Of a stretch of DNA of 21,325 nucleotides, positions 1-19,554 are shown one piece after another. How positions within the stretch are numbered: the stretch's first letter is position 1; each line of letters opens with the position of its first letter. Where the stretch lies: positions 1 to 21,325 of the IMG/VR virus record IMGVR_UViG_3300020204_000448. One strand, written 5' to 3'. The notes below the pieces were generated by a model. It saw nothing but the letters and a program-made list of their open reading frames with translations, searched no databases and was not told where the DNA came from. This DNA comes from a virus. A program made the translations under genes and the position numbers.

Positions 1-941
1 TTAACTTGACAAATTGTTGGAATCATTTGATGGCTAAACTTTTGAAATGCCACGGCAGAACCAGTAACAAAGCCCTCAACCATAAACAAATCGCCAAACA
101 CAATACGAACAGGTAATGGGTTAATAAACGCAGAGTTTCCAAAGTTCTTTTCGGACAATGTTTTTCTAAAAGCAGCCTCATCAAATTGAGTGTTTTGAAT
201 AAATTGATTGTTCTGGTTTGCGTTGTTTCCTTGATTAGTCAACGAATTTTGAACCTCAGCAACTTTTGCATTAAAATTTGTAATGGTATCTATAACGTCT
301 TGCGAAATTCCTTGTCCAATTATTTTGTCAAAAATAGAAAGGTCGTGCAGCACCCCAGAATACCGTGGGTCACTCAATTCTCCAAGCATTGACGTAGTTG
401 TAAAATCGTCAGTTACAGAAAGAGGAAGGTCGTTTGCAGGAGCGTCTCTAAACCTAAACCGCAAATCTCGGTCACGATTTGCAACCTCGTATTCACGATT
501 AAAGGTCATTGTAAAATTAAATGAAGCCGTTCCTGGAACTGGTTGAGTCAGGTTTGCGGGATTTTGCAACAGTGGGTTTACTGCTCCTTGACTTTGCGCC
601 ACGTTACGTTCAATGTATTCTGGATTAAATTGAAAGTTTAAACGCACATTAGGAGTCCTAGTAGACCCTACAACCGTTTCGTTTGGCTTAGAACCGCTTG
701 TGTCAAACAGAATACTTCGCATAAAACCACGTCGCATTTTTGACAACGCTCTAAATACGTCGTTTTTTCCTCCCATGTTTTTGTTAATGTGCGGAGGATT
801 ACTACCAGGAAAAAAGAAAGGATGATTGACCTTACCGTCCTCTGCCGTACCAGTTCTTTCTACAAGTCTTCCATAATTAGAAAAATTGGCATTTTTTAAA
901 TCATCATAATCTTTACTGTTTGAATTATAGTTTTTAGTCAC
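1..941 (-). CDS. CIS tube-adaptor/baseplate-like tail protein, C-terminus cut by window edge
   Basis: The frame stays open for 313 codons from a GTG at 941 to the left edge, so the C-terminus is missing. The GTG overlaps the tape-measure stop (GTGA), with GAGG five bases upstream, which supports this start. Visible pieces are a Gly/Pro/Asn-rich N-terminus, a FQFNPEYIERN segment near residue 103, a beta-rich stretch (FNFTMTFNREYEV, about 141), a Gln/Asn-rich linker (about 236-253), and a final segment PLPVRIVFGDLFMVEGFVTG (about 276-294). The FNP motif followed by a late 'FGDLFMVEGFVTG' strand resembles the tube-adaptor proteins of contractile injection systems that join the tube to the baseplate. 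Position directly after the tape measure fits. The family assignment is by motif resemblance only; a generic baseplate protein is the alternative. Confidence 0.7.
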   Translation of the reverse strand, partial: MTKNYNSNSKDYDDLKNANFSNYGRLVERTGTAEDGKVNHPFFFPGSNPPHINKNMGGKNDVFRALSKMRRGFMRSILFDTSGSKPNETVVGSTRTPNVRLNFQFNPEYIERNVAQSQGAVNPLLQNPANLTQPVPGTASFNFTMTFNREYEVANRDRDLRFRFRDAPANDLPLSVTDDFTTTSMLGELSDPRYSGVLHDLSIFDKIIGQGISQDVIDTITNFNAKVAEVQNSLTNQGNNANQNNQFIQNTQFDEAAFRKTLSEKNFGNSAFINPLPVRIVFGDLFMVEGFVTGSAVAFQKFSHQMIPTICQV

Positions 942-3805
942 GATGTCCTCACATTCATCATTTTAACTTCACGTTCAATAAGTTTAGATACTTCTTTTGC
1001 TAACTTATTGGCATCTATTGGGATAGAACCAGATGTCGTCATGTTAATTGTAGGATTAATGTTAAACGTTGCATTGTTGGTTACCGTTTTTAGAGATGCA
1101 GCATTCGTTGGTGATGTAGCCGATGCTGGCTTAGGAGCATAATCAGAAGGGTCTCCAAGGTTCTTTTTAAAGCCACCCTTACCAGACAAAGGGTCATTTA
1201 CTTCCCCTGCCCAATGATAATAAATGTTATTGCCACGACCTGTTGTAAGACCATCAGCCATCAACCATCCAGCAGCCGCCTCAATGTTGTTTTGAGGGTT
1301 CCACAACCCAGAATAATCTTTTTTGTATTGTGGAAATTTCTTAAATAAATCATTTTTGTTGTTACCCAACAAATTTAACTGCAAAAGACCAAATGAAAAA
1401 TCAGAAGTACTGCTATCGTCGTTGTAGGCATTAGCATCGTACCTGCTTTCTCGCAGCATTAATTGAGTAAAATTACTTACTTCGTCTGAGGTGAGTTTTC
1501 TTCCACGAACAGTAATTCCACGAAGTCTGGTTTCCAAAGACCCTACCGATTGGTGGCTGGCTCCCAATTTGTTACGCATGCGGCGATAGTGTTTTTTACG
1601 TTCCTCATCCGTTTTACCATGTCCACCACCACGACCATTATCCACGTCAGATGGACTGGAACCACCGACACCGCCTCCAAACCCAGCATAATTACCCTCT
1701 GGACTGTTGTCAAACATGATTACTTGTCGTTCTGATGCAAAAGACGCCATAGACTCAGCAATAGACAGTTGTGATGAAATGACCGCCGACAATTCAATAC
1801 CGCTAGTCATTTGACCAGCGCTTTGACCGTATGGACTTGTCTCCCTAGTTTCTCCAGTAGTTCCAGGTTCGTATCTACCAACACCGCTTCGGTCAGTTCC
1901 TTGAGGCGCTCCGCCCTCTTCGTAGTTTCTGCGACTAGCAGGAATTCCACTGGGCTGAACGTGCCAAGGTTCATCGTGACGTGAAAACTCATCAAGACCG
2001 TATTTACTTGCATTTCTTTGCAACCACATTACATCTTCATTAGATGCAAAGTTAAGGTCTGCTGCCAAGCCAATTTCATGGTACGACAACCCTGGAGGGG
2101 CAGTCATTGGTTCACCAGGTTTCTTTTCCCAATATGACCCTTCAAAATACGTGTTTGTTTTTTTATCTGTTTTAACGTAACGTGACCTAAACAACGCATC
2201 TTGTGCTTGTGGACTTCTGTATGCACCTCCTTTCATAATGGTAATTCCAGGGCGGTCCGTCATCAAACGTTCCAACGGTTCACGCAATGTTGGCTTTAAC
2301 TGTGACAAAAGGGCGTCTTGATTCCCAGCACGAACCTTGTTGGTTGGGTTTTTGGCTTGAATACGTCCCGTTCCCCCGCCTTCACCACCGTCACCAAGAA
2401 CACCACCAATAGCCATCAAAGGAATACCAATATGTGGAAAGAATGGGGCCAAACCCATTCCTAACATTTGTGTCATTTTGGCAATTGGGTTTCCACGTAT
2501 TGAAGTACGTGCACCAATAATGCTTGACAAAAAGTCTTCAAACTTTTCTAACGCTTTGTTAGTTGCCTGAAGGTTCTTTTCCATTTGTGCATAGTTGTCT
2601 GCCTGCCGTTTGTACATTTGTTCCTCACGGCTTACCTCAGTACGAGTGGTTTCCTCTTCTTGAGTTGCGTAGTTCCCTTCAATTCCCATTATGCTACGAT
2701 GTGCTTTATTTGACGGGTCATAAGTTCCTTGACCGCCACGTTCTTTAAACGAAATGTTGGATTCTGCGTATTGAAGGAGCATGTCCTGCGCCCCTTGGTC
2801 CAATCCAGCCATTGACAAACGTTGGCGAAGAACCGACCCGTCCTGACGACCACCTTCAATGATTTCACGATTGTTTAAACCAAGCCGTTGAATAAGTTCT
2901 TGATTTACCTGCATTGCCGACTTTTGTTGACCACCAATTCCGTAAAGACTCGTTCCAGTCATCATGAACATTCTGTTTACGGTGTCAGCCTGCCCCATAC
3001 TTTCAATGTATTGAGTAACGTCTCCAGCAGTTGCTGAATAACCAGTCAATGCACGCAACGATTCAACAGAACTCGCCTGCATTCGTGCGCTCAACCCAGT
3101 ACGAGATTGCATTGCTAACAACTCATTGATACCTCCGTATCCAAGTTTGTATTGTCGGAGTGGGTCACGCAAATCACGTTGTACTTGTCCTTGACTCATG
3201 TTGTATTGTTGTTGCAATACAACGCTCAAACGGTCAGCGGGCAAAGCGTATTGTTTGTTTCTGTCTACACGGTTGTCAATTTCTTGAACAGCCATTTGTA
3301 AGGCTTCAAAACCTTTTGAACCAGTAAAAGTTTTTAAAGCACTTGTCTTTTTAGTACCACCACTTGCGGGTGCTGCTCCAGGTCCAGAAGAGCCTATTCC
3401 CAACTGAGCCAAAATAGCAATCGCATCGGCGGCTTCGGTGCTTATTCCAGAACCACCAGTTCCAGGAGGAGGCGCAGATGCCGCAGGAGGCATTCCCTTA
3501 GACGTGTCCATATATCCAGAGGAACCAGCGCTACCGCCCATCTTGCCCATGGCAGTGGCTGCCTTATTTAATTGAGTAGTAAGGTCCTTTGCTTCTCTGG
3601 TAAGAGATTTAAACTTGTCTTTAATCTTTTTTACGTTGCCATCAAGTTTGGTAAGTTCTTCGTTGAGACCTTTTAGCATGGTCAAATCAACGCTGAGGCG
3701 TGAGTTAACAACGGCGTTGCCCATAGCACTAGCCGCAGAGCCTTCAGCAGCGCTATCGCCGCCAAGACCTCCTGTTGCTAAGTTAGGTTCGTTGTTGTCT
3801 ACCAC
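938..3805 (-). CDS. Tape measure protein with M15 peptidase and lytic transglycosylase domains
   Basis: 955 residues. GTG start with GGAGG seven bases upstream. Residues 38-85 are a charged helix likely to form a coiled coil, followed by Gly/Pro/Ser-rich and helical stretches and one hydrophobic segment (about 445-470). Residues about 525-620 form a VanY-type M15 peptidase: SYHEIGLAAD gives zinc ligands H576 and D583, and DEPWH gives E612 and H615. Residues about 770-870 form a lytic-transglycosylase/lysozyme-like domain with catalytic-type E786 in LRESRYD and SFGLLQ at 804-809. The C-terminus (NATFNINPTINM, then a Lys/Glu-rich helix) is typical of tape measures. The protein should set tail length, be packed inside the tube and help open peptidoglycan at infection. 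The place after the tail assembly chaperone supports the call. Two muralytic domains in one tape measure is notable. Confidence 0.88.
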   Translation of the reverse strand: MVDNNEPNLATGGLGGDSAAEGSAASAMGNAVVNSRLSVDLTMLKGLNEELTKLDGNVKKIKDKFKSLTREAKDLTTQLNKAATAMGKMGGSAGSSGYMDTSKGMPPAASAPPPGTGGSGISTEAADAIAILAQLGIGSSGPGAAPASGGTKKTSALKTFTGSKGFEALQMAVQEIDNRVDRNKQYALPADRLSVVLQQQYNMSQGQVQRDLRDPLRQYKLGYGGINELLAMQSRTGLSARMQASSVESLRALTGYSATAGDVTQYIESMGQADTVNRMFMMTGTSLYGIGGQQKSAMQVNQELIQRLGLNNREIIEGGRQDGSVLRQRLSMAGLDQGAQDMLLQYAESNISFKERGGQGTYDPSNKAHRSIMGIEGNYATQEEETTRTEVSREEQMYKRQADNYAQMEKNLQATNKALEKFEDFLSSIIGARTSIRGNPIAKMTQMLGMGLAPFFPHIGIPLMAIGGVLGDGGEGGGTGRIQAKNPTNKVRAGNQDALLSQLKPTLREPLERLMTDRPGITIMKGGAYRSPQAQDALFRSRYVKTDKKTNTYFEGSYWEKKPGEPMTAPPGLSYHEIGLAADLNFASNEDVMWLQRNASKYGLDEFSRHDEPWHVQPSGIPASRRNYEEGGAPQGTDRSGVGRYEPGTTGETRETSPYGQSAGQMTSGIELSAVISSQLSIAESMASFASERQVIMFDNSPEGNYAGFGGGVGGSSPSDVDNGRGGGHGKTDEERKKHYRRMRNKLGASHQSVGSLETRLRGITVRGRKLTSDEVSNFTQLMLRESRYDANAYNDDSSTSDFSFGLLQLNLLGNNKNDLFKKFPQYKKDYSGLWNPQNNIEAAAGWLMADGLTTGRGNNIYYHWAGEVNDPLSGKGGFKKNLGDPSDYAPKPASATSPTNAASLKTVTNNATFNINPTINMTTSGSIPIDANKLAKEVSKLIEREVKMMNVRTS

Positions 3806-8760: not shown

Positions 8761-9569
8761 CAGAAGTGCCCAGTGTTATAAAGACTGCCAGGGGGAGTGG
8801 TGTCAACAAAAACGTCTTCACGCAAATCGTCTTCTTGGTCAGAGATGTCAATAGTGCCTTTGTCACGGTCTGGGAACACTCGTTTGATTGGACCGTAGTC
8901 ACCGATTTCACGGGCAACATAGATGGGTACATAACGGTTGGTCGTACGGGAGACACGGCTGAGGTTAAGCACCTCAATGCGATTGACGCCAATGTTAAGG
9001 GCCTTGGCTTGGTTTTCATATTCTTTTTGCCAATACTCTAAAAGGCTCTGCACCATTCGGTAACGTTGGCTGCCAGGGATATGCACTGACTCAGAAGTCA
9101 TTACATCAATGTCACGACTGTATTCCCCCAACAAAGCCCACAATGATTTAACTACCGTAGCCAAACCAATCGTGTTAACAACAATGTCAGACATGTTTTC
9201 AAGAGGGATAGCCAAGTTGTAAACATGTTCTTCAATGGCGTGGTGGGCATAGTATGACATGTCATCTGGCGATACCCATTCGTAATAGTAACCTTCAACC
9301 ATTAAACGACTGTTAGCGGCAGGAGTAGATGTCATACGAACAATGCCGTTTCGGGCATCTAAAGAAAACGCCGATGCCGCCAATTCGTTTGCTTGATTGG
9401 ATGTGTATACGGCAATGTACAAACTATCTTTGTCTATGTTTGGGTGTCCTAGTTCGTACGTGCGTGAAACGTTGTCAAACGCAATTTGAAAGAATCGTGG
9501 AAAGTCACGAAGATACGAACGTGATATTTCCGTAATTCTGTCAACAATTGTTTGGTCAAAATGCGCCAT
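8760..9569 (-). CDS. Probable head-tail adaptor / neck protein
   Basis: 269 residues. The ATG is three bases after the stop of the preceding small gene. The first third is helical and aromatic (SYLRDFPRFFQIAF, about residues 18-31). The middle (YYAHHAIEEHVYNLAIPLEN, then IGLATVVKSLWALLGEY) is helical, and the C-terminus is acidic and Asp-rich. I see no enzymatic motif. As the first gene of the connector block, downstream of the capsid genes and translationally tied to the closure-like gene, it most likely binds the portal ring on the outside. The role is inferred from order rather than from a diagnostic motif. Confidence 0.5.
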   Translation of the reverse strand: MAHFDQTIVDRITEISRSYLRDFPRFFQIAFDNVSRTYELGHPNIDKDSLYIAVYTSNQANELAASAFSLDARNGIVRMTSTPAANSRLMVEGYYYEWVSPDDMSYYAHHAIEEHVYNLAIPLENMSDIVVNTIGLATVVKSLWALLGEYSRDIDVMTSESVHIPGSQRYRMVQSLLEYWQKEYENQAKALNIGVNRIEVLNLSRVSRTTNRYVPIYVAREIGDYGPIKRVFPDRDKGTIDISDQEDDLREDVFVDTTPPGSLYNTGHF

Positions 9570-9572
9570 AAG

Positions 9573-9728
9573 TTACTCGTCAGATGAGTCTGGACCAGGA
9601 AGCGTGTCTTGTTCTGGGGCGTTAATAGAGGGTTGCGCCTCACGGTGACGACGAACAGTTGTTCGTTTAACGGCTATCATGTCCTCAACCGTTCCAGTAG
9701 GTCGTGGGATGGGGCGTTCCAAAGACAT
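9573..9728 (-). CDS. Small 51-residue hypothetical protein
   Basis: A longer reading begins at 9785, inside the preceding gene. The ATG at 9728 is preferred because it lies just after the preceding stop (9736) and has TAAGG nearby. The product is Pro/Arg-rich, with PIPRPTGTVEDMIAVKRTTV in the first half and an acidic tail ending DSSDE. There is no membrane segment or known motif. It is tightly packed between the fibre-like and adaptor genes, so it may be a minor virion or assembly protein. I do not recognise it. Confidence 0.5.
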   Translation of the reverse strand: MSLERPIPRPTGTVEDMIAVKRTTVRRHREAQPSINAPEQDTLPGPDSSDE

Positions 9729-9735
9729 GGAAACC

Positions 9736-10350
9736 TTAACCAAATACTTGTCCACCAAGTACAAGGTTGCCATCCCCACCATCAATTGTAGTAACTATGG
9801 TTGCGTTTACCCACGCCGAACCGTTCCATTGCAGTACTTGGTCATTAGACGGAGAGGGAGCAGTAACATCAGAAAGACTATCAAGTGTTGTCGGAACGGG
9901 AACATTAGAAAGAACAAAAGCACGTTTATCAATAATGTCATTAGCAACAATTGACTCGTTGGTTCTCCGCAGAATTGCTGCCAAAACAATATCAGTGCTT
10001 GGAAGGGCGGGAAATACTGGATTGGTGGTGCTTGCTACTCCAGTAATTGTTTGAATAGTTACTGCGCCACTTGCAAAGCGGGCAACCACAAGGTCAAACC
10101 TGTTGCCAGAAGACGGGGCAGCAGACAGGGCGTATGCGCCGTTAGCAGAGAGGGCATAATCTGTTCCCTCGTAGGCAATCGTTCCAGAAGCAACGGCAAC
10201 GGTATTGCCAGAAACTGATGTTACGGCAGAATTGGTAACAACGCCTTTTCTACGATTACCTAGAATTTCAAAATCAACACGGTCTGGCTCAGACTGGTCA
10301 AGCGTTGATTTGTCATTATCTGGGGCGTTGGGGATTGTAAACCCTGCCAT
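9736..10350 (-). CDS. Fibre- or decoration-like virion protein
   Basis: 204 residues. ATG start with GGGAGTAAT upstream. The sequence is rich in Ala, Val, Ser and Thr and looks like an all-beta protein: VTNSAVTSVSGNTVAVASGT (about residues 37-56) and SGNRFDLVVARFASGAVTIQ (about 81-100). Near the end it has TLDSLSDVTAPSPSNDQVLQ and WNGSAWVNA (155-183). This 'L..LsDV..p.p..gqvL.wnGsaW' pattern recurs in phage fibre, appendage and surface proteins. Because it sits two genes after the major capsid protein and before the connector genes, it may be a head fibre or capsid decoration protein rather than a tail fibre. I see no receptor-binding or enzyme motif that would decide. Confidence 0.58.
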   Translation of the reverse strand: MAGFTIPNAPDNDKSTLDQSEPDRVDFEILGNRRKGVVTNSAVTSVSGNTVAVASGTIAYEGTDYALSANGAYALSAAPSSGNRFDLVVARFASGAVTIQTITGVASTTNPVFPALPSTDIVLAAILRRTNESIVANDIIDKRAFVLSNVPVPTTLDSLSDVTAPSPSNDQVLQWNGSAWVNATIVTTIDGGDGNLVLGGQVFG

Positions 10351-10358
10351 ATTACTCC

Positions 10359-10595
10359 CTACTCAAGAGTGTCGTAGATATTACCATTCTTACGCAGGTA
10401 GTTGTACAAATCTTTGGGGATGTTGAATCGTTTTCCGTCCACAAAATTATACACCGAACCACCCCAGTACATATTCCATGAACCTTTGACACGGGCTTGT
10501 ATTAAGTTGCTTTCTTCCGTAGGAACGGGTATTGCAACTTCAACCTCGGTTTCATCTTCAACAGATTCCGCAAACTGATTACTTTTCCTAGCCAT
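10359..10595 (-). CDS. Small 78-residue protein after the capsid gene
   Basis: ATG start with AGGAG upstream. The N-terminal half is acidic and probably disordered (EDETEVEVAIPVPTEE). The C-terminal half, YWGGSVYNFVDGKRFNIPKD then LYNYLRKNGNIYDTL, is compact. I recall similar 'G..ynF..G+...+p.d+..yL+..G' proteins next to phage capsid genes, but none with an established function to my knowledge. It is separated from the capsid gene by 90 bases with a strong hairpin, suggesting lower expression than the capsid protein. A minor capsid or connector-assembly protein is possible. Confidence 0.65.
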   Translation of the reverse strand: MARKSNQFAESVEDETEVEVAIPVPTEESNLIQARVKGSWNMYWGGSVYNFVDGKRFNIPKDLYNYLRKNGNIYDTLE

Positions 10596-10628
10596 GATTG
10601 TCTCCTAATTGTGTTTCATAAGTATAGC

Positions 10629-10665
10629 GGGGTCGGCGGGCGTTAATTACCACCCAGCCGACCCC
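10629..10665 (-). terminator. Strong GC hairpin directly after the major capsid gene
   Basis: GGGGTCGGC (minus strand, 10665-10657) pairs perfectly with GCCGACCCC (10637-10629), a 9-bp GC-rich stem. After one mismatch two more G-C pairs can form. It lies 21 bases past the capsid stop. The bases after the stem are GCTATACTTATG, without a U-run, so it is not a textbook intrinsic terminator. It may be an attenuator that lowers expression of downstream genes or a 3' stabiliser of the capsid mRNA. Confidence 0.5.
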
Positions 10666-10685
10666 AACTACTTGGATTGTCGCTA

Positions 10686-11777
10686 TCAGGAAGCCCCGAT
10701 TGCGCCACCCTTGGTGTTGATGAGCACACGGCTCTCGTGCGTAATGACCCCGAAGCCCCAGATGGCGTACCACGCCAAACCGTGCTCACGTCCGAAGTCA
10801 ATGACGCCACCGTCACGGAGTTCAACAGGAAGTGCGATTGCCTGACCGAAAGCGTTGTCACCAATCATGATGGCGCTGTACGAGTCGGCATGCGGGTCCT
10901 GGACACCAGCGCTGCTGGGGTTCACGTCCACGACGCTTCCAGTCTGACCCCTGAGCACTTGCGTGGTCTCAATGAACACAACGTCGTAGAGGCGACCAAT
11001 TTCACCCAACATGAAGTTGCCAGGAGCAGCGTACTTGGTGACTTCAATGAACTCAGGCCAGTCACGGAGCGAGCGGCTCTGCGACGGGTGAACGAAGCAC
11101 ACGTAGGTGTCGCCAAGGCGAGGAATGTTTTGACCAGCCAACACCTCAACTGCATCCTTGATGGTTGCAGGCGAGAGGTAGCCAGGAGCACTTGCACTAC
11201 CAGCGGCGCTGTACTCGTACGGGGCGATGGAACCACGGGTAGCACCGTTGGTCAGACGACCAAAGACCACGCTCGGCGGAACGGCTGCGCCGCCACCGAA
11301 GGGAACTCCCGAAGCGTACAGCGTGTTACGTGCCTGAATGTCCATGGACTGTGCCATGTGACGACCAAGGAGACGTGAAGCCGACGCCATGACGTCATCA
11401 AACGCTGCGTTGAGCAACAGTTCGGTGACAGCAACTGCGTTGCCTTGTTCCTTGACCGTAATTTGAATCTGCGAAGCAGACAGAGCATTTGGCTCCAAGC
11501 GCACACCTTCGGTCAATTCTGCGCCAACAGAAGCGTTGGTGGAGAGGTTGGTGTAACGCATGAAGTTAACAGTGAGACCAGGCATCACGCCAAGTTCGGT
11601 CTTCTTCACTGCAAACTGCTCAAAGCGCAGAACGGGCATTGCCTGGAACAAGATTTCCTTGCTCCAGATGACTTGGATTGCGGGTGACAGAGTGGTGTCA
11701 GACGAGTAGCCAGTCGTCGTAATTGACGCTAGGTTTGCTCCTGTGATTGAACCACCTGCTGGTGCTGGAAGTGCCAT
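10686..11777 (-). CDS. Major capsid protein (HK97 fold, N4-gp56-type)
   Basis: 363 residues. ATG start with GGAGG and an unstructured A/C-rich leader. The pattern VIWSKEILFQAMPVLRFEQF (about residues 36-55) followed by 'PGLTVNFMRYTNL' matches the N4-gp56 family of HK97-fold capsid proteins. Other fitting parts are EQGNAVAVTELLLNAAFDDV and the late YVCFVHPSQSRSLRD. It forms the icosahedral shell. The gene follows the scaffold and is followed by a hairpin. Synonymous codons look more GC-rich than in neighbouring genes, as expected for a highly expressed protein. No N-terminal delta-type domain is visible, consistent with a separate scaffold. Whether it is cleaved during maturation cannot be told from the sequence. 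Confidence 0.92.
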   Translation of the reverse strand: MALPAPAGGSITGANLASITTTGYSSDTTLSPAIQVIWSKEILFQAMPVLRFEQFAVKKTELGVMPGLTVNFMRYTNLSTNASVGAELTEGVRLEPNALSASQIQITVKEQGNAVAVTELLLNAAFDDVMASASRLLGRHMAQSMDIQARNTLYASGVPFGGGAAVPPSVVFGRLTNGATRGSIAPYEYSAAGSASAPGYLSPATIKDAVEVLAGQNIPRLGDTYVCFVHPSQSRSLRDWPEFIEVTKYAAPGNFMLGEIGRLYDVVFIETTQVLRGQTGSVVDVNPSSAGVQDPHADSYSAIMIGDNAFGQAIALPVELRDGGVIDFGREHGLAWYAIWGFGVITHESRVLINTKGGAIGAS

Positions 11778-11836
11778 TGAAAATATCCTCCGTGGATAGT
11801 TGTTGTTTATTAGTTGTTTGTTCTAAAACGGTTTCG
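11778..11836 (-). promoter_or_regulatory. A/C-rich leader of the capsid gene
   Basis: The 59 bases before the capsid ATG read as AGAACAAACAACTAATAAAC, then AACAAC and further on GGAGG near the start. It has almost no G apart from the ribosome site, so it should stay unfolded and give efficient ribosome loading. I see no clear -10/-35 pair in it. A weak GTTTC/GAAAC hairpin sits at its upstream edge, over the scaffold stop. Confidence 0.4.
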
Positions 11837-12637
11837 TTAGAAACGTCCCCGTGAAGAACGTGCGTTCAAGAGTCTCTCACGCATCTTCTGATACTGTTCC
11901 ATTGACATGTTCCTAATATCTTCGGCTGTCAACGTTTGCTGCTCCATCTGAGTTTCCATTGGCCCAACGGGTGGGGCTGTAACCCCCGCACCCTTCAAAC
12001 GACTTTGGGTTTCCGCTGTCGCCTTTTGAACATTTTCAAGAATAGCAGAACTAACTTCTTTGTACCTGTTAATTTGTGATTCAACTTCTTCCTCGCTTGA
12101 ACCACTAATCATGCCAATAAGTTCGGGAATAATGTGCTCTTGTTCCTCTTGCACACGGCGACCAATGTAATTTTGTAACTCTTGGTGGCGGCGCTCTTTC
12201 TCCAAAAGGGCAGACTGTGCCTGACGGTCACGGTCAATTTCCTCAAGACGTGCCCTCCACTCCGCCTCAACCGTGTTGAGTTTTTGATTAAACTCCGTCT
12301 CTTGACGAATGAGAAGTTCCTTAGCCGACAGTTCCTCAAACTCTTTTTCTTTAAGAGCCTTGGCTTCGGCTTTTGCCCGTTTTTCTGCTTCCTTAAGGGC
12401 AGCCTCACGTTCGTCTGACATGATTTTTAGTTGTTGTTCAAGTGCTTTGACACGGGAATCCGCATCGTCCACTTTCTTATACAACTTGTCTTTTTCTTGC
12501 TTGCGAATGTTTTCCACCTCATCTTCGGTGAAAGTTCGCTGTTTGGTCTGCTGACCAGTTACTTCAGCAGCCTCATTCTTAAAGGTTTCAGTCGCCTCTA
12601 CTGGGATGACGACTTCATCCTGTGCTTGCTTTGCCAT
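11837..12637 (-). CDS. Capsid scaffolding protein
   Basis: 266 residues. ATG start with GAGG upstream. Residues about 36-165 are a very long charged helix rich in Glu, Lys, Arg and Ala (for example ALKEAEKRAKAEAKALKEKE), certain to form a coiled coil. A Pro-rich break (TAPPVGPM) is followed by a final helix and a basic end, ERLLNARSSRGRF, the kind of tail with which scaffolds bind the capsid protein. It lies between portal and major capsid genes, the classic scaffold position. It should direct prohead assembly and then leave. No protease domain is fused to it, so removal must rely on exit or on another enzyme. Confidence 0.88.
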   Translation of the reverse strand: MAKQAQDEVVIPVEATETFKNEAAEVTGQQTKQRTFTEDEVENIRKQEKDKLYKKVDDADSRVKALEQQLKIMSDEREAALKEAEKRAKAEAKALKEKEFEELSAKELLIRQETEFNQKLNTVEAEWRARLEEIDRDRQAQSALLEKERRHQELQNYIGRRVQEEQEHIIPELIGMISGSSEEEVESQINRYKEVSSAILENVQKATAETQSRLKGAGVTAPPVGPMETQMEQQTLTAEDIRNMSMEQYQKMRERLLNARSSRGRF

Positions 12638-12687: not shown

Positions 12688-14370
12688 TTATTCTTCGCTA
12701 GGGCTACGACGCTGGGCTAACCTTGCGCCATAAGCCCTACTAACCATTTGATTCATCAGGTCTGATTCTACAGGGCCGACAGCCGTTCCAGGCATGCCTG
12801 CTCCAGAATCTCCCGTAGATGACACGTCAGAACCACCTGCCGATGTCGCTGCGGGTCCCGCACCACCTGGAACCATGCCCGTGGCGAGCATGACTGCCAT
12901 TTGGATTTGAGAATTAAGCATGGTCAACGCACCTTGGTCAATGGCGTCGTCCATAAGTTCTTCAAAGATTTCTTCCATTTTTTCATTGGGGAACTCTTCG
13001 CCAAGGATACGCAAAGCGCCCCGCTTGGACTCAAGCCCAAGACCCATCTTTGACTGCACTTCATTAAGTTTGATAAGCACATCAACGGGCAACGGTTCAG
13101 GCCAATGAACAGTAGTTTTATAAGTAATTGGGTCTGCTGGGTCTAGTTGGGTTAGATGGTCTCGTTCTGGACGTGCTGCCCGCATAGGATTGTACACAAG
13201 CATCTCTGGTCGGAAGATAGAAGCAGTACGAATAATAAGTTCATTAACGTGCTCAAGCCCTTTTGTAAAGTGCGTTTTTTTCATTGAATAACGATTCATT
13301 AACGGCTGGTATTGGATAGCCAAAGCCACACCACTGGTATTGGATACTGGTTGAAATTGTCCCAATGCTGTTTCTGGAATGCCTGTAATTTCGTGCATTG
13401 TTCGCTTCAAAAATTGAATGTACTCCAACGCTCCAGCCATTTCTCCACGAGATTCAAGATTGAATACCTGTGCGTCTTTGGGCAAACCTGCCCAAACCTT
13501 CTTAGGACCACGCTCAAGTTGACTTGCCTTAGCACCAGTAATGATGGTGACAGGGGCAGCATGATAATTAATGATGTCCGAAACTTCAACCATCTTTTCA
13601 TTGAGTTCACGATTCAATGGAATGATGTCCCAAATATCCGATTGGCCCCACGGCGACGATGAAATACTCACATTAGGAATGTGTACGACTGGTACTGAAC
13701 CAATCGCATTTGGATATTCGTCAATCAATTCATCATTAATAAACTGTTGAACCATTTCATCAGACAAGATTTCTGTAAAAGTGTAAACCTGTCGTGTGCC
13801 CTCAGCAGACGTTCCCCAAAAACGATACTTAAGTTTAAACCTCAATAACCTGTCACGGTCATGCGGATGGTATTCAGGAAAACAATGCGCTGGGTTAAGT
13901 GGAATGACACGAATACGACCTTCGTGAGGAATTCCAACGGTGTCTACATACGGCTCTTCATAGGCAACTTTAACAAAACAGTCTCCAGTAACCCCTGCTA
14001 ATTGCCCCATTTCCCACAACACTTTATACTTGTTGTTGTGACTATTCCAAACGTCATCTAACAAGTGCGGAATGATGGCAGTGTTTTGTTCTGGGCATTT
14101 AAAATGGACACCTTTACCAAAGCAAAAATTGGTAATGTAGTCTGACATTGTGCGAACGTAGTTAAGATAAAAAGCGGATTCGCCCATCTCACGTCGGTAT
14201 GCCCAATGGTGACCCAAGTACCATGCCCAAGCCGACGAATAACGATTTAAGCGTGGACCATGAACCTCAAACTCTTCATCGGCAAGTTCCACCAACCCCA
14301 ACGGGCTGATGGCTACCGTCAGGTCACTGGCGGCAGCACGATAAGACGGTGACCAAAAGTCAATTGCCAT
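12688..14370 (-). CDS. Portal protein (SPP1 gp6-like)
   Basis: 560 residues. ATG start with only a weak A/G-rich ribosome site seven bases past the previous stop. The sequence has the portal pattern: AWYLGHHWAYRREM near residue 48-61, VRTMSDYITNFCFGKGVHFK (about 72-91), a long crown region, then QSDIWDIIPLNRELNEKMVE (about 253-272), and the helix TMHEITGIPETALGQFQPVS (about 330-349). 'ITGIPE..LG....SG+AL' is a well-conserved feature of SPP1-type portals. It makes the twelve-subunit ring at the vertex for DNA entry and exit. The final ~60 residues are Gly/Ser/Pro-rich and probably flexible. Length is usual for the family. Confidence 0.92.
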   Translation of the reverse strand: MAIDFWSPSYRAAASDLTVAISPLGLVELADEEFEVHGPRLNRYSSAWAWYLGHHWAYRREMGESAFYLNYVRTMSDYITNFCFGKGVHFKCPEQNTAIIPHLLDDVWNSHNNKYKVLWEMGQLAGVTGDCFVKVAYEEPYVDTVGIPHEGRIRVIPLNPAHCFPEYHPHDRDRLLRFKLKYRFWGTSAEGTRQVYTFTEILSDEMVQQFINDELIDEYPNAIGSVPVVHIPNVSISSSPWGQSDIWDIIPLNRELNEKMVEVSDIINYHAAPVTIITGAKASQLERGPKKVWAGLPKDAQVFNLESRGEMAGALEYIQFLKRTMHEITGIPETALGQFQPVSNTSGVALAIQYQPLMNRYSMKKTHFTKGLEHVNELIIRTASIFRPEMLVYNPMRAARPERDHLTQLDPADPITYKTTVHWPEPLPVDVLIKLNEVQSKMGLGLESKRGALRILGEEFPNEKMEEIFEELMDDAIDQGALTMLNSQIQMAVMLATGMVPGGAGPAATSAGGSDVSSTGDSGAGMPGTAVGPVESDLMNQMVSRAYGARLAQRRSPSEE

Positions 14371-14377
14371 TTATATA

Positions 14378-14683
14378 TTACTTCTTCTTTTTCTTAGTAA
14401 CGGCTTTCTTAACGGCAGGAACTTGTGCAACAGCAGTTGGTTGAGCAACAGTTTCCTTAACAGCAGCCTCAACAACTTTGCTTTGTTTGACAAAGAAATT
14501 AGCAACAGTGGGGTCCCCAACCCACGTACTTGCGGCATTGAGTAAATACAAAAGGACGGGAAGAACCACGATGTTAAGAGCAGGGTCAATTTCCCAAGTA
14601 GCAAACAAGTAGGAAACAACTCCCACTGCGCCACCTTTGGTTGCTACGTCGGCTAGTGCGGATACTTGCAGTTTCTTTGACAT
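14378..14683 (-). CDS. Small two-helix membrane protein with Lys-rich tail, possible holin
   Basis: A reading from TTG at 14710 exists, but the ATG at 14683 has AGGAG at the right distance and is preferred, giving 101 residues. There are two hydrophobic segments, GGAVGVVSYLFATW (about 18-31) and IVVLPVLLYLLNAAST (about 38-53), joined by a short acidic turn. Then comes a Val/Ala/Gln-rich stretch and a tail of five Lys. Two short helices plus a strongly positive C-terminus is holin-like. However, it stands between the Ntn peptidase and portal genes, away from the endolysin, and could be a membrane protein of another role. I do not recognise the family. Confidence 0.6.
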   Translation of the reverse strand: MSKKLQVSALADVATKGGAVGVVSYLFATWEIDPALNIVVLPVLLYLLNAASTWVGDPTVANFFVKQSKVVEAAVKETVAQPTAVAQVPAVKKAVTKKKKK

Positions 14684-14709
14684 ATGTTCTCCTGTAGATA
14701 GGTGTGACA

Positions 14710-14739
14710 ATTATACCGCTTTGCGACGTTTTGTGCTAA
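14710..14739 (-). promoter_or_regulatory. Candidate promoter for the portal-scaffold-capsid block
   Basis: On the minus strand, TTAGCA (14739-14734, four of six matches to a -35) is followed after 18 bases by a perfect TATAAT (14715-14710). It overlaps the end of the Ntn peptidase gene and lies about 27 bases before the next start. It is the best sigma-70-type match I noticed in the window, though one hexamer match can arise by chance. Confidence 0.35.
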
Positions 14740-15337
14740 CCTTTTGTCCTTGCACAAACGCTTGATACGGTGCGCCAGTACCAGAGTCGTACTTAGAAGC
14801 AATGGCTAAGGCACGAAGAGCAATGCTTTTTGCCTGTTGAGAGTTTAGTTTTTTGTTACGAATTAATACCGTCATAGCACCCAAAGCATACGACGAGCCA
14901 CTACCTAATGAATACAGTCCAGAGGCTTCCGACGACCACGAATAGTCAGATTCAATGACGTATATTTGAGAATTAATAGAAACAATAATAGACGACCCCT
15001 GTTCAGCAATATGTTCTTTGTCCTCACGGTCAGGAACTGAATAACCTTGTGCGTCAAAGCATTCTCGCAAAGACGGTACAAATTTGGACGTAAAAAACTG
15101 GTCTAGTTTCTTTCCACGAATGTTTTGTGGAGGCGTAGGTGGCTGAAAGACATGATGCAAGATGTTGATGGCACGAACATCCCCAGCAGCACCAATAATG
15201 TATTTTCCATTTTGTGCCAGTTTTCCAGAACCTTCTCGCAATGTTCCTATTTGTCGGGCGTCATCACTTGTAGTGACACGAGAGTCTGCACAGATTACCG
15301 CAAACTCATCTCCTTGAATACCAACAATAGTTGTCAT
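14711..15337 (-). CDS. Proteasome-beta / HslV-like Ntn peptidase
   Basis: 208 residues beginning MTTIVGIQGDEFAVICADSR, very like HslV and 20S proteasome beta subunits after propeptide removal. Cleaving Met1 would expose Thr2 as nucleophile. D18 (ADSR) fits catalytic Asp17, and K39 (GSGKLAQNGKYIIGAAGD) fits Lys33 in position before the conserved strand. Near the end, GSGSSYALGAM (145-155) is the conserved beta-subunit 'GSGS.yA.g' motif, and the YDSGTG segment (D184) fits the Asp166 region. So all catalytic elements appear present. The start has no ribosome site and lies two bases past the phosphoesterase stop, suggesting coupled translation. No unfoldase partner (HslU, Mpa/ARC) is in the window. 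It could serve as prohead/scaffold protease, disable host proteins, or act with host ATPases. The fold call is firm; the role is open. Confidence 0.85.
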   Translation of the reverse strand: MTTIVGIQGDEFAVICADSRVTTSDDARQIGTLREGSGKLAQNGKYIIGAAGDVRAINILHHVFQPPTPPQNIRGKKLDQFFTSKFVPSLRECFDAQGYSVPDREDKEHIAEQGSSIIVSINSQIYVIESDYSWSSEASGLYSLGSGSSYALGAMTVLIRNKKLNSQQAKSIALRALAIASKYDSGTGAPYQAFVQGQKVSTKRRKAV

Positions 15338-15339
15338 GT

Positions 15340-16491
15340 TTAATTAACAGAAAACTCAATACCTCGGTACATGCCCCACCCATTGTAAATGGGCATTACT
15401 TCATATGAGAACTTGTGCTCCCCCCTGTCCTCATACGTAACAACACCTACTCCTTGTTGCCAATTTTCGTACCGAACAATCGGACGCCCGTCAAGGTCCA
15501 CACCACCTTTTGTAGACGGTACAGCACCATCAATGCGGGCAAGACAACCAGGAGAAGCAGCCATAATGGTACGAGGACCATCAAAGTCTTCCCTTGTTTT
15601 AAACGCCGTTTCAATCCTGTGGATGTGTCCATATATCACACTCGTCTTTTCGTTGTTTAGATAAACGTGAGCCGTTGAGCCAGAAGACTTTACACGGTCA
15701 CCGTGAATGATTCTGAGTTTCTCATTAATCCAATAATCGGACGCAGGGTAGCCAGGTCGGTACTCCACTTTGTAGTCATCCATGCGACACAGATACGGAA
15801 CAGTAAGAACGGGCCACGACTGCGGCATATTTCCTTTGCGTAAACCGTACGCTGCTGCTGCGTTGGTAAGAAGATATTTTGGCATACGCTCTTCGTGGTT
15901 TCCAGCAAGCCAAGCAATCTTTGCGTGCGGTGCAGCATTACGAAGTTCCGCACATAGTAAAGCAGCCCTGTCTATTGCCGCTTGAGTAGTTTGTTGGTAG
16001 GCAGGTGTAGTTAGGTATTTACCCATTTCAGGAAAATCAAGGTTGTCACCAACGCAAACTACAACATCTGGTTCTACGGAGCAAATCAATTCAAGAACGA
16101 TTTTAATTGCGTTCTCGTCATGGGTTGGTTCTAATTTACCGTCACGACCACGGTAGTAACCAATCTGTGCATCTGGAACCACTACACACTTTTTAAACTT
16201 GCTTTTTTTAAGAGTGCGTGCTTTTTTAGTAGGCAGTTTGATTGCGGGACCTTGTTGAATTACAGGCCATTTTGGACCACTGTCCCATGTTGGAGAAAAT
16301 TGAATTGCAGCAAGGTCGTGTACTTCTGCTTCACCTTCTTCATTTTTTGTTAACGACTGATAAATGGAAACACGGCTGACGTCACCAATATCGGCAATGT
16401 CTATGTTTTTTCGTTTGAGCAAGTCAAGCAAATCGCCCAACACTTTTTCACGTTTTTCTGGTCCGTTCAAATCATCCTTCAGATTGGTCAC
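15340..16491 (-). CDS. Calcineurin-type metallophosphoesterase
   Basis: 383 residues. GTG start with AAGGAG upstream, overlapping the HTH gene by 20 bases. After a charged ~100-residue N-terminal part, the phosphoesterase blocks appear in order: DAQ with D107 (His of the usual DxH replaced by Gln), GDNLD (148-152), GNHE (197-200), HGD (263-265) and GHIH (288-291). These bind two metal ions and hydrolyse phosphodiesters or phosphomonoesters; the substrate is unknown. DxQ variants of block I, as here, may alter metal affinity. Similar phosphoesterases behind a small HTH protein are, as I recall, frequent in actinobacterial phages. The N-terminal part (helix, then AAIQFSPTW) may bind DNA, but that is a guess. 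Confidence 0.88.
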   Translation of the reverse strand: MTNLKDDLNGPEKREKVLGDLLDLLKRKNIDIADIGDVSRVSIYQSLTKNEEGEAEVHDLAAIQFSPTWDSGPKWPVIQQGPAIKLPTKKARTLKKSKFKKCVVVPDAQIGYYRGRDGKLEPTHDENAIKIVLELICSVEPDVVVCVGDNLDFPEMGKYLTTPAYQQTTQAAIDRAALLCAELRNAAPHAKIAWLAGNHEERMPKYLLTNAAAAYGLRKGNMPQSWPVLTVPYLCRMDDYKVEYRPGYPASDYWINEKLRIIHGDRVKSSGSTAHVYLNNEKTSVIYGHIHRIETAFKTREDFDGPRTIMAASPGCLARIDGAVPSTKGGVDLDGRPIVRYENWQQGVGVVTYEDRGEHKFSYEVMPIYNGWGMYRGIEFSVN

Positions 16492-16756
16492 AAGAACACT
16501 CCTTGTTTACGTGTCGTTGTATCGTACTTACACTTATTTGATAACCGTTCTTACGTAACACTTTAGCAAGCCACACACTACTATGCGACCTATTCTTACC
16601 ATTGAGGTTTGATGTGCGAATGAGTTCAATGGCTTTTACCAATGCCTCACGCTCGTCACCCTCTAAAGAATTAATCAACCTACCTATTTTGCAAGGATAG
16701 TGTTTGGTTTCTTTTGATTGGTCTGTTAAGTCGGTCAGCAACGACGACTTGTCCAT
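16472..16756 (-). CDS. Small helix-turn-helix DNA-binding protein
   Basis: The longest frame begins at a TTG (16768), but that TTG is part of the GGAG ribosome site of the ATG at 16756, so the ATG is preferred (94 residues). Residues about 60-85 (SSVWLAKVLRKNGYQISVST then IQRHVNKECSC) form a helix-turn-helix with a 'S.sTIqRH....C.C' ending. That pattern resembles small DNA-binding proteins of actinobacterial phages that precede a phosphoesterase gene. A helical region EGDEREALVKAIELIR lies before it. The gene is coupled to the phosphoesterase by a 20-base overlap. It might regulate transcription or guide the partner enzyme to DNA. A small terminase role is possible but unsupported. Confidence 0.7.
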   Translation of the reverse strand: MDKSSLLTDLTDQSKETKHYPCKIGRLINSLEGDEREALVKAIELIRTSNLNGKNRSHSSVWLAKVLRKNGYQISVSTIQRHVNKECSCDQSEG

Positions 16757-16780
16757 GTTGTGCTCCAAGTTGTGAAAAAA

Positions 16781-17590
16781 CTACGCAGTGAGGGCGTCCC
16801 ACGTGCGCTGATTGCAAACACCATTGGTTTGTAGGCTAACAGACTTTTTGAAGTAGTTGAGGGCTTTTTCGGTAGCAGGTCCAAAGTTCCCGTCAACTGT
16901 GCAAGCAAAGCCCTTTTTAGTAAGCAACTCTTGCATTTGTTTTACTTTGTCACCCTTGTCTCCCAATTTCAGTTTCAAACCATCGTCTGTATTTACAGCA
17001 GCAGGAGCGGCAACGGGAGCAGCCTCTTTCACTTCTGGGGCTTTAATACCGTTTTTATCCATGTATGTTTTAACAGCAGTAGGAACTTCATCACCGCATA
17101 CATAACGCAAATGCCACGGCTCTTCTGGAACCACTTCCCAACTAAAACCAAATGTTTTAACGTTGTCAATAAGCCACTTAAGACGGGGACCGCTGGCAGT
17201 ATGAACGTCCACCGCAATTCCCAAATTATGTTGAGAGGACCCTGGCGCAGCAAGGCTGGCTAGTTTTGGGTCTTTCTTGTACCATTTGACGCCTTCAAAC
17301 GTCCTGGTTGCATTGCCGTTTGGCTCTTTGGTGTAACGCTGTTTAAACGCTGTAAGTTGTGAATCGTAAGTACGGTAGGTATCTCCTGCCGAAACAGGCT
17401 TTAATTCAACACCGTCTGCTTTGGCCTTTTCCACCATTGCAGCCCACGCTGCTGCGGCAAGCCAGTGCAGTTTTCCACCACCAACGGCGGGACAAAGCAA
17501 GTGCTCAGGCAACCGACCAGGTTGCACACCCTTCAAGTCAGCGGGCATTTTTACTGGAACAACGTAGTCCCAATCAACTTTTTTGGACAT
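16781..17590 (-). CDS. Endolysin: M15 (VanY-like) peptidase plus peptidoglycan-binding domain
   Basis: 269 residues. ATG start with AGGAG upstream. The catalytic domain covers about residues 30-175: SSQHNLGIAVDVH gives H121 and D128, and EEPWHLRYV gives E157 and H160, the zinc ligands and catalytic Glu of VanY-type D,D- or L,D-carboxypeptidases and endopeptidases. A Pro/Ala/Val linker (about 183-200) leads to a PG_binding_1 domain (about 207-267: LGDKGDKVKQMQELL, VDGNFGPATEKAL, RTWDAL). It should cleave the peptide bridge of the host wall at lysis. There is no signal peptide, so it needs a holin; candidates lie on both sides. The gene is upstream of the portal gene rather than behind the tail genes. 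Confidence 0.92.
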   Translation of the reverse strand: MSKKVDWDYVVPVKMPADLKGVQPGRLPEHLLCPAVGGGKLHWLAAAAWAAMVEKAKADGVELKPVSAGDTYRTYDSQLTAFKQRYTKEPNGNATRTFEGVKWYKKDPKLASLAAPGSSQHNLGIAVDVHTASGPRLKWLIDNVKTFGFSWEVVPEEPWHLRYVCGDEVPTAVKTYMDKNGIKAPEVKEAAPVAAPAAVNTDDGLKLKLGDKGDKVKQMQELLTKKGFACTVDGNFGPATEKALNYFKKSVSLQTNGVCNQRTWDALTA

Positions 17591-17592
17591 GC

Positions 17593-19554
17593 TTAACTCC
17601 TCTTGCGTCGTGTTTTTGCTGGTATTAATGATAACTGGTCTGCGGTCTGCGGTTCATTCCTTCGCCTGTTCCGAACGGCGGATTCAAATAAAGGTTTTTG
17701 AGACGCAGTTCTTGACATGTAGTCTTCATGGGCTTCACTAGCAGTTCTACCAAAGCCTAGTTTGTTTAAAACTGGACGAAGTTCAGGCAAATGTTCCCAC
17801 ATTTGACCAAGAGCCAATTTATTTGCAAGGTGTACATCATAATGCTCATCTAAATTAGTGGGAGCATGTCCCCCATATCGGTAAGTCCTTCTACCAGAAC
17901 GACGGGAGGCGTCTCTTCGTTGTCGTGCCAACGTGTGATTGTGTGCGGCTATCACGTCTTCTCTAATTTGATAATGCTCTAGTAGTTCTAGACGGTTTGG
18001 AATTGCAAGGTCATCTCCTGGATTTGCCGCCAAATGCTGACGAACAGCCGAATAGAGTGCCCTTTCCGTAGCGTTCCAATTTCCGTATTCAGAAGAGTAT
18101 CCGCTATTTTTAATTTTTTCTGAACGAACATCAACATCGTGAAACACATCCTCTACCTGCCCACGATGATAGTATGTCCTATCGGTGTGAGCATCGGCAT
18201 AGCCTTCTGCAACAGGGTCCGTTATACTATTACGCATTTTACGGCGAACTCGCTCCGTTCGTACATTGTTAAAACCACGCATAGGTTCAAAAGTGTGTCC
18301 AATTTCATGCACAAGTGTAGACGTGACTGGAACGTATTTGTTTTTAACTGGAACAGTTTCATGAGTAATAGGTTCTTCTATTTCAATTTTATTTCCTTGT
18401 TCATCCATTGTAAAATACATTTTTGTTGGTAGTTTAGTGGGCTTTGTTCTGTCTGGTTCGTGACGGGTGTGCCAAGTTACTGTTTTGTAGTCTGCGTTTA
18501 TAGACCTTCTGTCGGGACCGTTTTCAAGTTTTACAATTCTTGCAGAATGCTTTTCAGTGTTTTTACCAATACCTGGAAACACGTTTGGAACAATGTTATT
18601 AGTTTCTAAAAAATCAAGTACGTCGTGGTCGGGTGCTCGTGTATCGTCAGACGCATAAACTTTGACTATATTGTCAATGTCTACATTGTCAAAATCGTGG
18701 AACCTATGCCATTTTCCTGTTCCTGCTCCTTGTTTTCGTGAATCAACAATATTTTGTTTACTGTCGTTATCCAATTCTTCAACGTGTTCGTTTTCTTCCA
18801 CTTCGTGTCGTTGAGCGTATTTTGAATGCCTATTTTTAATAGGCACGTTCAAATCGCCAAGGGTTAGTTCTTCTAAATCGTCATTGGTGTAAATAGTGCC
18901 ATTAGGATGCCGCCACCGAATATGCTCTTTGCTTTCACCATCGGGTACGTATTTTGGAGCATATTTTCTATTCGGGGCTTGAATTATGTCTTGATAGTAT
19001 TCTGCTGCCTCTGGATTGTGCTTCTCGTATTGTCCCTCTTTCCAGAACTTTTCATTAAAAATTGGTGTATCGGAGGGTTCATAACCCACCGTTTTAATGG
19101 GTACTTTTTGGTAAGCCTGTTCAACACCAACTACGATGTTCCCGCCGTAGAAAGAGGCGTGTCCACGACCACGCCCCAATTCTCCTGTTAATACGGCATT
19201 CGTTCTGCCGATATCTGACATTGTTGTATCGGTTTTGTTAATTGCCTCAACAAATCCAGCAATGTGTCCCTCGGCTGCTGGTCCTTTAAGTCTGGCACGA
19301 CGTGCGTAATCAACGGGGTCTGTTAAACCTAGCGACTTTTTAATGGCTCTAGTACGGTCTTCACTACTTACCGTAGGGTCTTGTACTAAACCAGTATGGG
19401 CATATGGGCTAAACAACATCCCTTGAGGACTGGTGTCACGTTTAGAATTAACTTCTTCCGCTACTCTGTAGTCTTCACGTACAGAGTAATCAGTGGTATC
19501 ACCCGTATCTGGATTTTGCCAGTACGTGTTTTTAAACTGACTGCCTAAAGTCAC
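17593..19554 (-). CDS. Large protein with HEIGH zinc-metalloprotease motif, function unknown
   Basis: 653 residues from a GTG that overlaps the upstream stop (GTGA). It is hydrophilic, rich in Asp, Glu, Arg and His, and lacks signal peptide and membrane segments. VHEIGHTFE (HExxH at 416-420) followed by DPVAEGYADAH (E450) is the zincin pattern with a second motif Glu, so it is likely a zinc-dependent protease. The region before it has a beta-rich part (YKTVTWHTRHEPDRTKPTKL at about 356-375). The C-terminus is Arg-rich (EPQTADQLSL, then ends KTRRKRS). The ~400 N-terminal residues match nothing I recognise. It stands between a membrane protein and the endolysin. It may process virion proteins, be injected, or attack host proteins; the sequence does not say which. 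Confidence 0.72.
   Translation of the reverse strand: MTLGSQFKNTYWQNPDTGDTTDYSVREDYRVAEEVNSKRDTSPQGMLFSPYAHTGLVQDPTVSSEDRTRAIKKSLGLTDPVDYARRARLKGPAAEGHIAGFVEAINKTDTTMSDIGRTNAVLTGELGRGRGHASFYGGNIVVGVEQAYQKVPIKTVGYEPSDTPIFNEKFWKEGQYEKHNPEAAEYYQDIIQAPNRKYAPKYVPDGESKEHIRWRHPNGTIYTNDDLEELTLGDLNVPIKNRHSKYAQRHEVEENEHVEELDNDSKQNIVDSRKQGAGTGKWHRFHDFDNVDIDNIVKVYASDDTRAPDHDVLDFLETNNIVPNVFPGIGKNTEKHSARIVKLENGPDRRSINADYKTVTWHTRHEPDRTKPTKLPTKMYFTMDEQGNKIEIEEPITHETVPVKNKYVPVTSTLVHEIGHTFEPMRGFNNVRTERVRRKMRNSITDPVAEGYADAHTDRTYYHRGQVEDVFHDVDVRSEKIKNSGYSSEYGNWNATERALYSAVRQHLAANPGDDLAIPNRLELLEHYQIREDVIAAHNHTLARQRRDASRRSGRRTYRYGGHAPTNLDEHYDVHLANKLALGQMWEHLPELRPVLNKLGFGRTASEAHEDYMSRTASQKPLFESAVRNRRRNEPQTADQLSLIPAKTRRKRS

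Follow-up and report, generated by a model that had tools for sequence, protein, structure and literature searches.

A proteasome/HslV-like peptidase encoded beside the portal gene in two phage lineages is probably not a substitute for a head-maturation protease

Our study confirmed a proteasome-type peptidase gene next to the head genes of the window (the whole stretch of DNA analysed, a 21 kb fragment of a virus record comprising 21,325 nucleotides), which comes from a freshwater phage whose host is probably an actinobacterium. Because close relatives make the same heads without it, the product more probably serves infection in an accessory role than matures the head. The peptidase is of a kind already known from phages, and its gene context is informative.

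The open reading frame occupies positions 14711-15337 on the minus strand and encodes a product of 208 aa; the plus strand of the same interval contains stops throughout. The original prediction had placed the gene in this interval, and every sequence feature on which it was built was recovered in the translation: the product opens M-TTIVG, carries D18 and K39 (numbered from Met1) and has GSGSSYALGAM at residues 145-155. The peptidase matched the Pfam family Proteasome (PF00227) with an E value of 2e-8, above the curated cut-off, and phrog_1040 ('peptidase HslV family') with an E value of 4.5e-23 and residues 1-200 aligned. A sequence search of the PDB returned BPH (5ovs, E 2e-5), which was the best solved relative by sequence, followed by HslV and 20S beta. 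Judged from these sequence matches, membership of the family is well past chance. Thr2, Asp18 and Lys39 were invariant in all 189 sequences compared, which came from two divergent lineages, and Gly49/Gly52, Ser146, Asp184 and Thr187 were likewise conserved across the window-type clade. Conservation of the three catalytic positions among relatives, whose lack would have counted against the original prediction, was thereby borne out. Values of dN/dS against close relatives were 0.03-0.12, a range that indicates purifying selection on the gene. There is no propeptide, as the gene begins M-T, and Thr2 is the predicted nucleophile once Met has been removed.

An AlphaFold2 monomer model of the peptidase, built from 31 relatives, reached a pLDDT of 83 and a pTM of 0.81. 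Foldseek matched the model to HslV and BPH with E values of about 1e-11 (HslV, 4e-11), and VIA-align superposed it on BPH, HslV and 20S beta with Z scores of 18-19 over 165-177 residues, at an rmsd of about 3 A. Residue 2 of the model was paired with residue 1 of BPH 5ovt_A and of HslV 1e94_A, which puts Thr2 in the place of Thr1. The model has helices at 54-63 and 76-96, and the loop of the pore region (residues 106-112) had a pLDDT under 50. On the evidence of this model the peptidase has the proteasome fold, and the prediction of a monomer fold, also proposed at the outset, returned HslV, BPH and 20S beta alike, that is, the Ntn/proteasome type. The earlier claim of an Ntn peptidase whose active site is intact, and for which removal of Met is the only processing step, is thus supported by the invariant residues, the M-T start and the predicted fold. 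The peptidase is likely to be active as an enzyme and would form a ring.

The genes of the minus strand run in the order VanY endolysin, helix-turn-helix protein, metallophosphoesterase, peptidase, small protein, portal (SPP1 type), scaffold and capsid, as follows:

16781..17590, minus strand: VanY-type (M15) endolysin with a peptidoglycan-binding domain (Pfam match)
16472..16768, minus strand: small protein with a weak helix-turn-helix match (Pfam and PHROG)
15340..16491, minus strand: metallophosphoesterase (phrog_20266), directly upstream of the peptidase (Pfam and PHROG)
14711..15337, minus strand: predicted proteasome/HslV-like (group I, BPH-like) N-terminal threonine peptidase, 208 aa (Pfam, PHROG and PDB sequence matches, AlphaFold2 model, conservation)
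14378..14710, minus strand: small protein (about 100 aa) with a hydrophobic segment and a Lys-rich tail, encoded between the peptidase and the portal (a homologue was detected in 43 of 104 relatives)
12688..14370, minus strand: portal protein, SPP1 gp6-like (Pfam and PHROG)
11837..12637, minus strand: scaffolding protein (alignment to the scaffold annotated in Streptomyces phage GiJojo)
10686..11777, minus strand: major capsid protein (phrog_1357), without a delta domain (PHROG and alignment)

The metallophosphoesterase gene is separated from the peptidase gene by a gap of 2 nt, with no overlap. Elsewhere in the window, the tape measure protein (938-3805, minus strand) contains an SLT transglycosylase domain and a VanY-type peptidase region that shares about 35% identity with the VanY endolysin of the same phage, which suggests a common origin. 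A protein of 653 aa that belongs to no known family (17593-19554, minus strand) lies between a holin-like gene and the endolysin; it is a variable insertion, carried by only a few relatives (L003, L127 and L128) and absent from others, such as L005.

The order metallophosphoesterase, peptidase, portal was kept in all 98 close relatives long enough to include both neighbours, so that the position beside the portal, scaffold and capsid genes noticed originally is confirmed in the window and across these relatives. A single exception to this order (L078) was seen among 104 loci. In nearly all relatives the metallophosphoesterase match stops 3-16 nt ahead of the peptidase. In about a fifth of the close relatives (L041, L045, L047, L129 and others) the peptidase and portal are about 1.0-1.25 kb apart rather than the usual 0.33-0.38 kb, with an extra gene inserted. 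A search of GTDB bacterial genomes for relatives of the peptidase gave one match, L118 (JAURLY010000091.1), a contig filed under a Gammaproteobacteria MAG with VanY, metallophosphoesterase and peptidase genes in the phage order. This contig keeps the metallophosphoesterase-peptidase pair and has no portal match after the peptidase. In appearance it is phage DNA, either misbinned or linked to the host.

Larger relatives extended the survey beyond the window. One close relative of 92 kb (G001) has end genes that match neighbouring genes in the window; this adjacency suggests that the G001 map is complete and circular. A scan of its genes found a terminase, polymerase A, RecA/UvsX, DnaB and baseplate genes, together with two WhiB genes. 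WhiB is a marker of actinophages under a published rule (PMC6802176), and the host of the window-type phages is probably an actinobacterium, because relatives carry these genes.

The original prediction noted that the visible head block contains no standard prohead protease, which is correct, and it would have been undermined by a conventional head protease elsewhere in the genome. Neither S78, S14/ClpP nor S49 head proteases were found in seven relatives of 92-98 kb, and the absence therefore extends from the head block to these near-complete genomes; the negatives rest on these three families, and a protease of an unrecognised family could exist. Among the families listed, up to 25 per PHROG list, the full gene scan of G001 likewise showed neither a further head protease nor an ATPase of the Clp/HslU type. 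It had also been suggested that the peptidase might work with an unseen phage ATPase. This finds no support in the relatives, as the AAA_2 (Clp/HslU type) domain was missing from seven near-complete window-type records and five E7-type records, in a search whose positive control matched 14 genomes. Together with the G001 scan, this led us to reject a phage-encoded unfoldase of the AAA_2 (Clp/HslU) type.

A second, very divergent actinophage lineage also carries the gene beside its portal. Phage LanE43AprE7 (E7; 39 kb) infects 'Ca. Planktophila', a host that has been cultured (PMC10202952), and encodes a homologue that is 31% identical and lies directly after the portal gene; its capsid belongs to the same PHROG family as that of the window (phrog_1357). 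The peptidase comes directly after the portal in 79 of 80 E7-type loci, and it is missing from 9 of the 73 loci with E7-type portals that could be scored. The portals of these nine are 85-87% identical to that of E7, and the genes that follow have moved up. One record with an E7-type portal (G043, 39.9 kb) had no phrog_1040 match anywhere. In the tree, the head-adjacent groups of the window and of E7 stood apart, with the genes of the DSL-LC01 type, L118, L121 and Pumpernickel on the window side. Two separate moves to the portal side, onto opposite flanks, are the simplest reading of this arrangement; a single ancestral portal-side position followed by several losses may also account for it. 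The records of the Planktophila phages E7 and F5 (OX376640.1 and OX376641.1) are unannotated and named Caudovirales sp. ct2KA10, which makes the proteasome homologue invisible to a keyword search. Another record (L202, 79,356 b) has an E7-type block that matches L196 (a record of 40,549 b) and is about double the usual genome length, possibly a head-to-tail dimer of the assembly.

The same head module occurs without the peptidase. Streptomyces phages GiJojo and BRock share with the window the portal (52%), the capsid (60%) and the scaffold, and neither had a phrog_1040 match or any S78, S14 or S49 protease; the annotated 'peptidases' of GiJojo are NlpC/P60 and a weak C92-like match, which by family are not head proteases. 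We collected 80 related portals from IMG/VR, of which 52 were scorable, having at least 2.5 kb upstream. The peptidase was absent near the portal in all 52, over the stretch covered, and missing from the whole record in 12 of 13 related records, although these are metagenome fragments in which absence is not proof; in the thirteenth (G037), a divergent copy lies some 14 kb away from the portal. S78 was found in none of 10 related records searched. The capsids of phages that do not carry the peptidase are 54-70% identical, and the capsid N-termini of carriers and non-carriers align, showing a short arm only and no cleavable delta domain, though a separate scaffold might still be cleaved. A separate observation concerns Bacteroides phage BS162P1 (L094), in which positions 9334-12054 encode relatives of the capsid (about 36%) and portal (26%) of this actinophage head, and in which a terminase-like protein contains an intein with a LAGLIDADG domain.

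Homologues in named phages also sit away from the head genes. The closest of these, in DSL-LC01 (48% identical), has a WhiB gene as its neighbour and lies some 10 kb away from the portal, and the S78 domain of this phage belongs to a separate, annotated capsid maturation protease. AAS21 (S78) and D'Alembert (S49) each have their own head protease, with the peptidase homologue elsewhere. In the named phages examined, the homologue was located in nucleotide-metabolism or early blocks.

These data bear directly on the suggestion that the peptidase is an unusual maturation protease. An obligate enzyme of this kind, replacing the usual prohead protease, would account for the site in the head locus and for the lack of recognised proteases. 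However, the peptidase is absent beside the portals of phages with 54-70% identical capsids and from E7-type phages with portals about 87% identical, and the capsid N-termini are the same with or without it. This reading is therefore largely refuted and we regard it as very improbable; as the main explanation, a substitute head-maturation protease was rejected on the natural absences, the S78 of DSL-LC01 and a capsid without a delta domain. As to the co-occurrence of the peptidase with this capsid type, put forward as a check, the head-block position is very stable and S78, S14 and S49 are lacking in the relatives searched, but the same capsid type mostly occurs without the peptidase. Most phages with this head lack both the peptidase and S78, and the head type therefore seems to have no need of a protease. 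Location in a head block and the lack of a known head protease are, as a caution, insufficient grounds for naming a head-maturation protease.

The explanation that we prefer, though with slightly less than even confidence, is an accessory, ATP-independent, self-compartmentalising threonine peptidase of group I (BPH/HslV-like) that is probably made late in infection and is not required to build the head. Going by gene order and strand, it would be synthesized late, as part of a block in which the genes for the head and for lysis lie on one strand with it. A Met aminopeptidase would expose Thr2, and the subunits would assemble into a double ring. With no unfoldase dedicated to it, the ring might cut the unfolded proteins or peptides of the host as it dies, or phage proteins made in excess, while head assembly would proceed without it. 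Working without an unfoldase is in line with BPH, for which no partner unfoldase is known (PMC5777263). The natural absence of the gene from phages with the same head supports an accessory role, as does the failure to find an AAA_2 partner in the phage relatives. What counts against it is an adjacency to the portal (98 of 98 scorable close relatives and 79 of 80 E7-type loci) that is more stable than would be expected of an accessory gene with no tie to the head.

Turnover of scaffold is the main rival to this accessory role, since it needs explaining why the gene adjoins the portal in two lineages. Here the ring would be a dispensable helper that breaks down scaffold or aborted head proteins, either while the prohead assembles or afterwards, and speeds maturation, recruited beside the portal twice in actinophages, which we consider possible but doubtful. 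It draws on the position of the gene on opposite portal flanks in two divergent lineages, the separation of these groups in the tree, the lack of S78, S14 and S49 head proteases in both, and the scaffold-like genes and phrog_1357 capsids that both contain. Its weight is lowered by the natural absences in E7-type loci (9 of 73), and most phages with the same portal, scaffold and capsid have neither the peptidase nor S78. DSL-LC01, which is nearer to the window by sequence than E7, carries the gene away from the head, and a closed chamber would be ill-suited to cutting inside a prohead. The more specific proposal, that a proteasome-type peptidase was recruited twice and independently to the portal-side head block of actinophages and degrades scaffold there, is unlikely. 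If true, this would place an Ntn hydrolase in phage head morphogenesis for the first time; our literature search found no paper joining a prohead protease with an Ntn hydrolase, and nothing relevant on HslV and scaffolding protein.

Two further readings are less likely than scaffold turnover. The peptidase might serve a host unfoldase (Mpa/ARC, ClpX or ClpC), or interfere with the host 20S proteasome by joining its rings, which we consider improbable. Many Actinobacteria possess a 20S proteasome and Mpa, while the known actinobacterial unfoldases dock on alpha rings or ClpP, and no docking feature was found in the peptidase. Hosts that are probably Actinobacteria would suit this reading (two WhiB genes in G001, Streptomyces phages with the same head module, and E7 on 'Ca. 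Planktophila', PMC10202952), but Fuchs et al. (2021, PMC8665760) found no co-occurring AAA+ partner for such homologues, and pull-downs with BPH gave none (PMC5777263). Alternatively, the proteasome fold may support another chemistry, that of a protein ligase like connectase or of an amidase, acting on a phage or host protein. Connectase, a ligase, does belong to the proteasome-like family (PMC8665760), and the pairing with a metallophosphoesterase, kept even in L118, is unexplained by proteolysis. The active-site residues, however, are those of peptidases, and connectase has a two-helix S3/S4 insertion over its active site, whereas our predicted model has no helix between the early strands; we find this reading quite improbable.

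Sequences of proteasome homologues from phages were described in 2021, and their gene context gave no hint of function (PMC8665760). In the present case the gene is fixed next to the portal in two large actinophage lineages, close relatives lack it and the host of E7 has been cultured; with two lineages, natural absences and this host, the function of a widespread orphan peptidase becomes directly testable. The original description of such enzymes as rare in phages does not hold, since phrog_1040 exists, the D'Alembert homologue matches 177 named phage records (mostly Salmonella and Escherichia phages), 38 models in BFVD have a matching fold (E <= 0.001) and phage homologues have been published (PMC8665760). 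The window profile itself matches 523 IMG/VR stretches.

Among known systems, the homologues of the window, E7 and DSL-LC01 all match phrog_1040, that of the window over its whole length, but the named members of this family that were examined lie in nucleotide-metabolism or early blocks and not adjacent to the portal as in the window. PPH and AAH are phage proteasome homologues of group I (Fuchs, Alva and Lupas 2021, PMC8665760), with no functional gene context reported and no known partner, and that study found AAH in no Actinobacteria-specific phage. PPH has about 140 residues and no helix H2 (PMC8665760), whereas our peptidase has 208 aa and two model helices in that region (54-63 and 76-96), which excludes it from PPH under the published definition. 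The Planktophila phages E7 and F5 (OX376640, OX376641) resemble the window in having a homologue beside the portal and a capsid of the same PHROG family, but differ in their 39 kb genome, their other neighbouring genes and the opposite portal flank. HslV (ClpQ) shares with the peptidase the fold, the TTI start and equivalents of Asp17 and Lys33, whereas no HslU-type gene was found in the phages searched and the peptidase has a longer loop leading from its second helix to the strand that follows. BPH assembles into a tetradecameric double ring, for which no unfoldase is known (PMC5777263), and has an elongated acidic pore loop. It is the best solved match by sequence and joint best by fold (5ovs, 5ovu); like the peptidase it belongs to group I, lacks a propeptide and has an EDKE-motif stretch at the pore loop, but identity is only about 20%, and the peptidase is encoded by a phage and carries a conserved DKEHIAE stretch in its loop.
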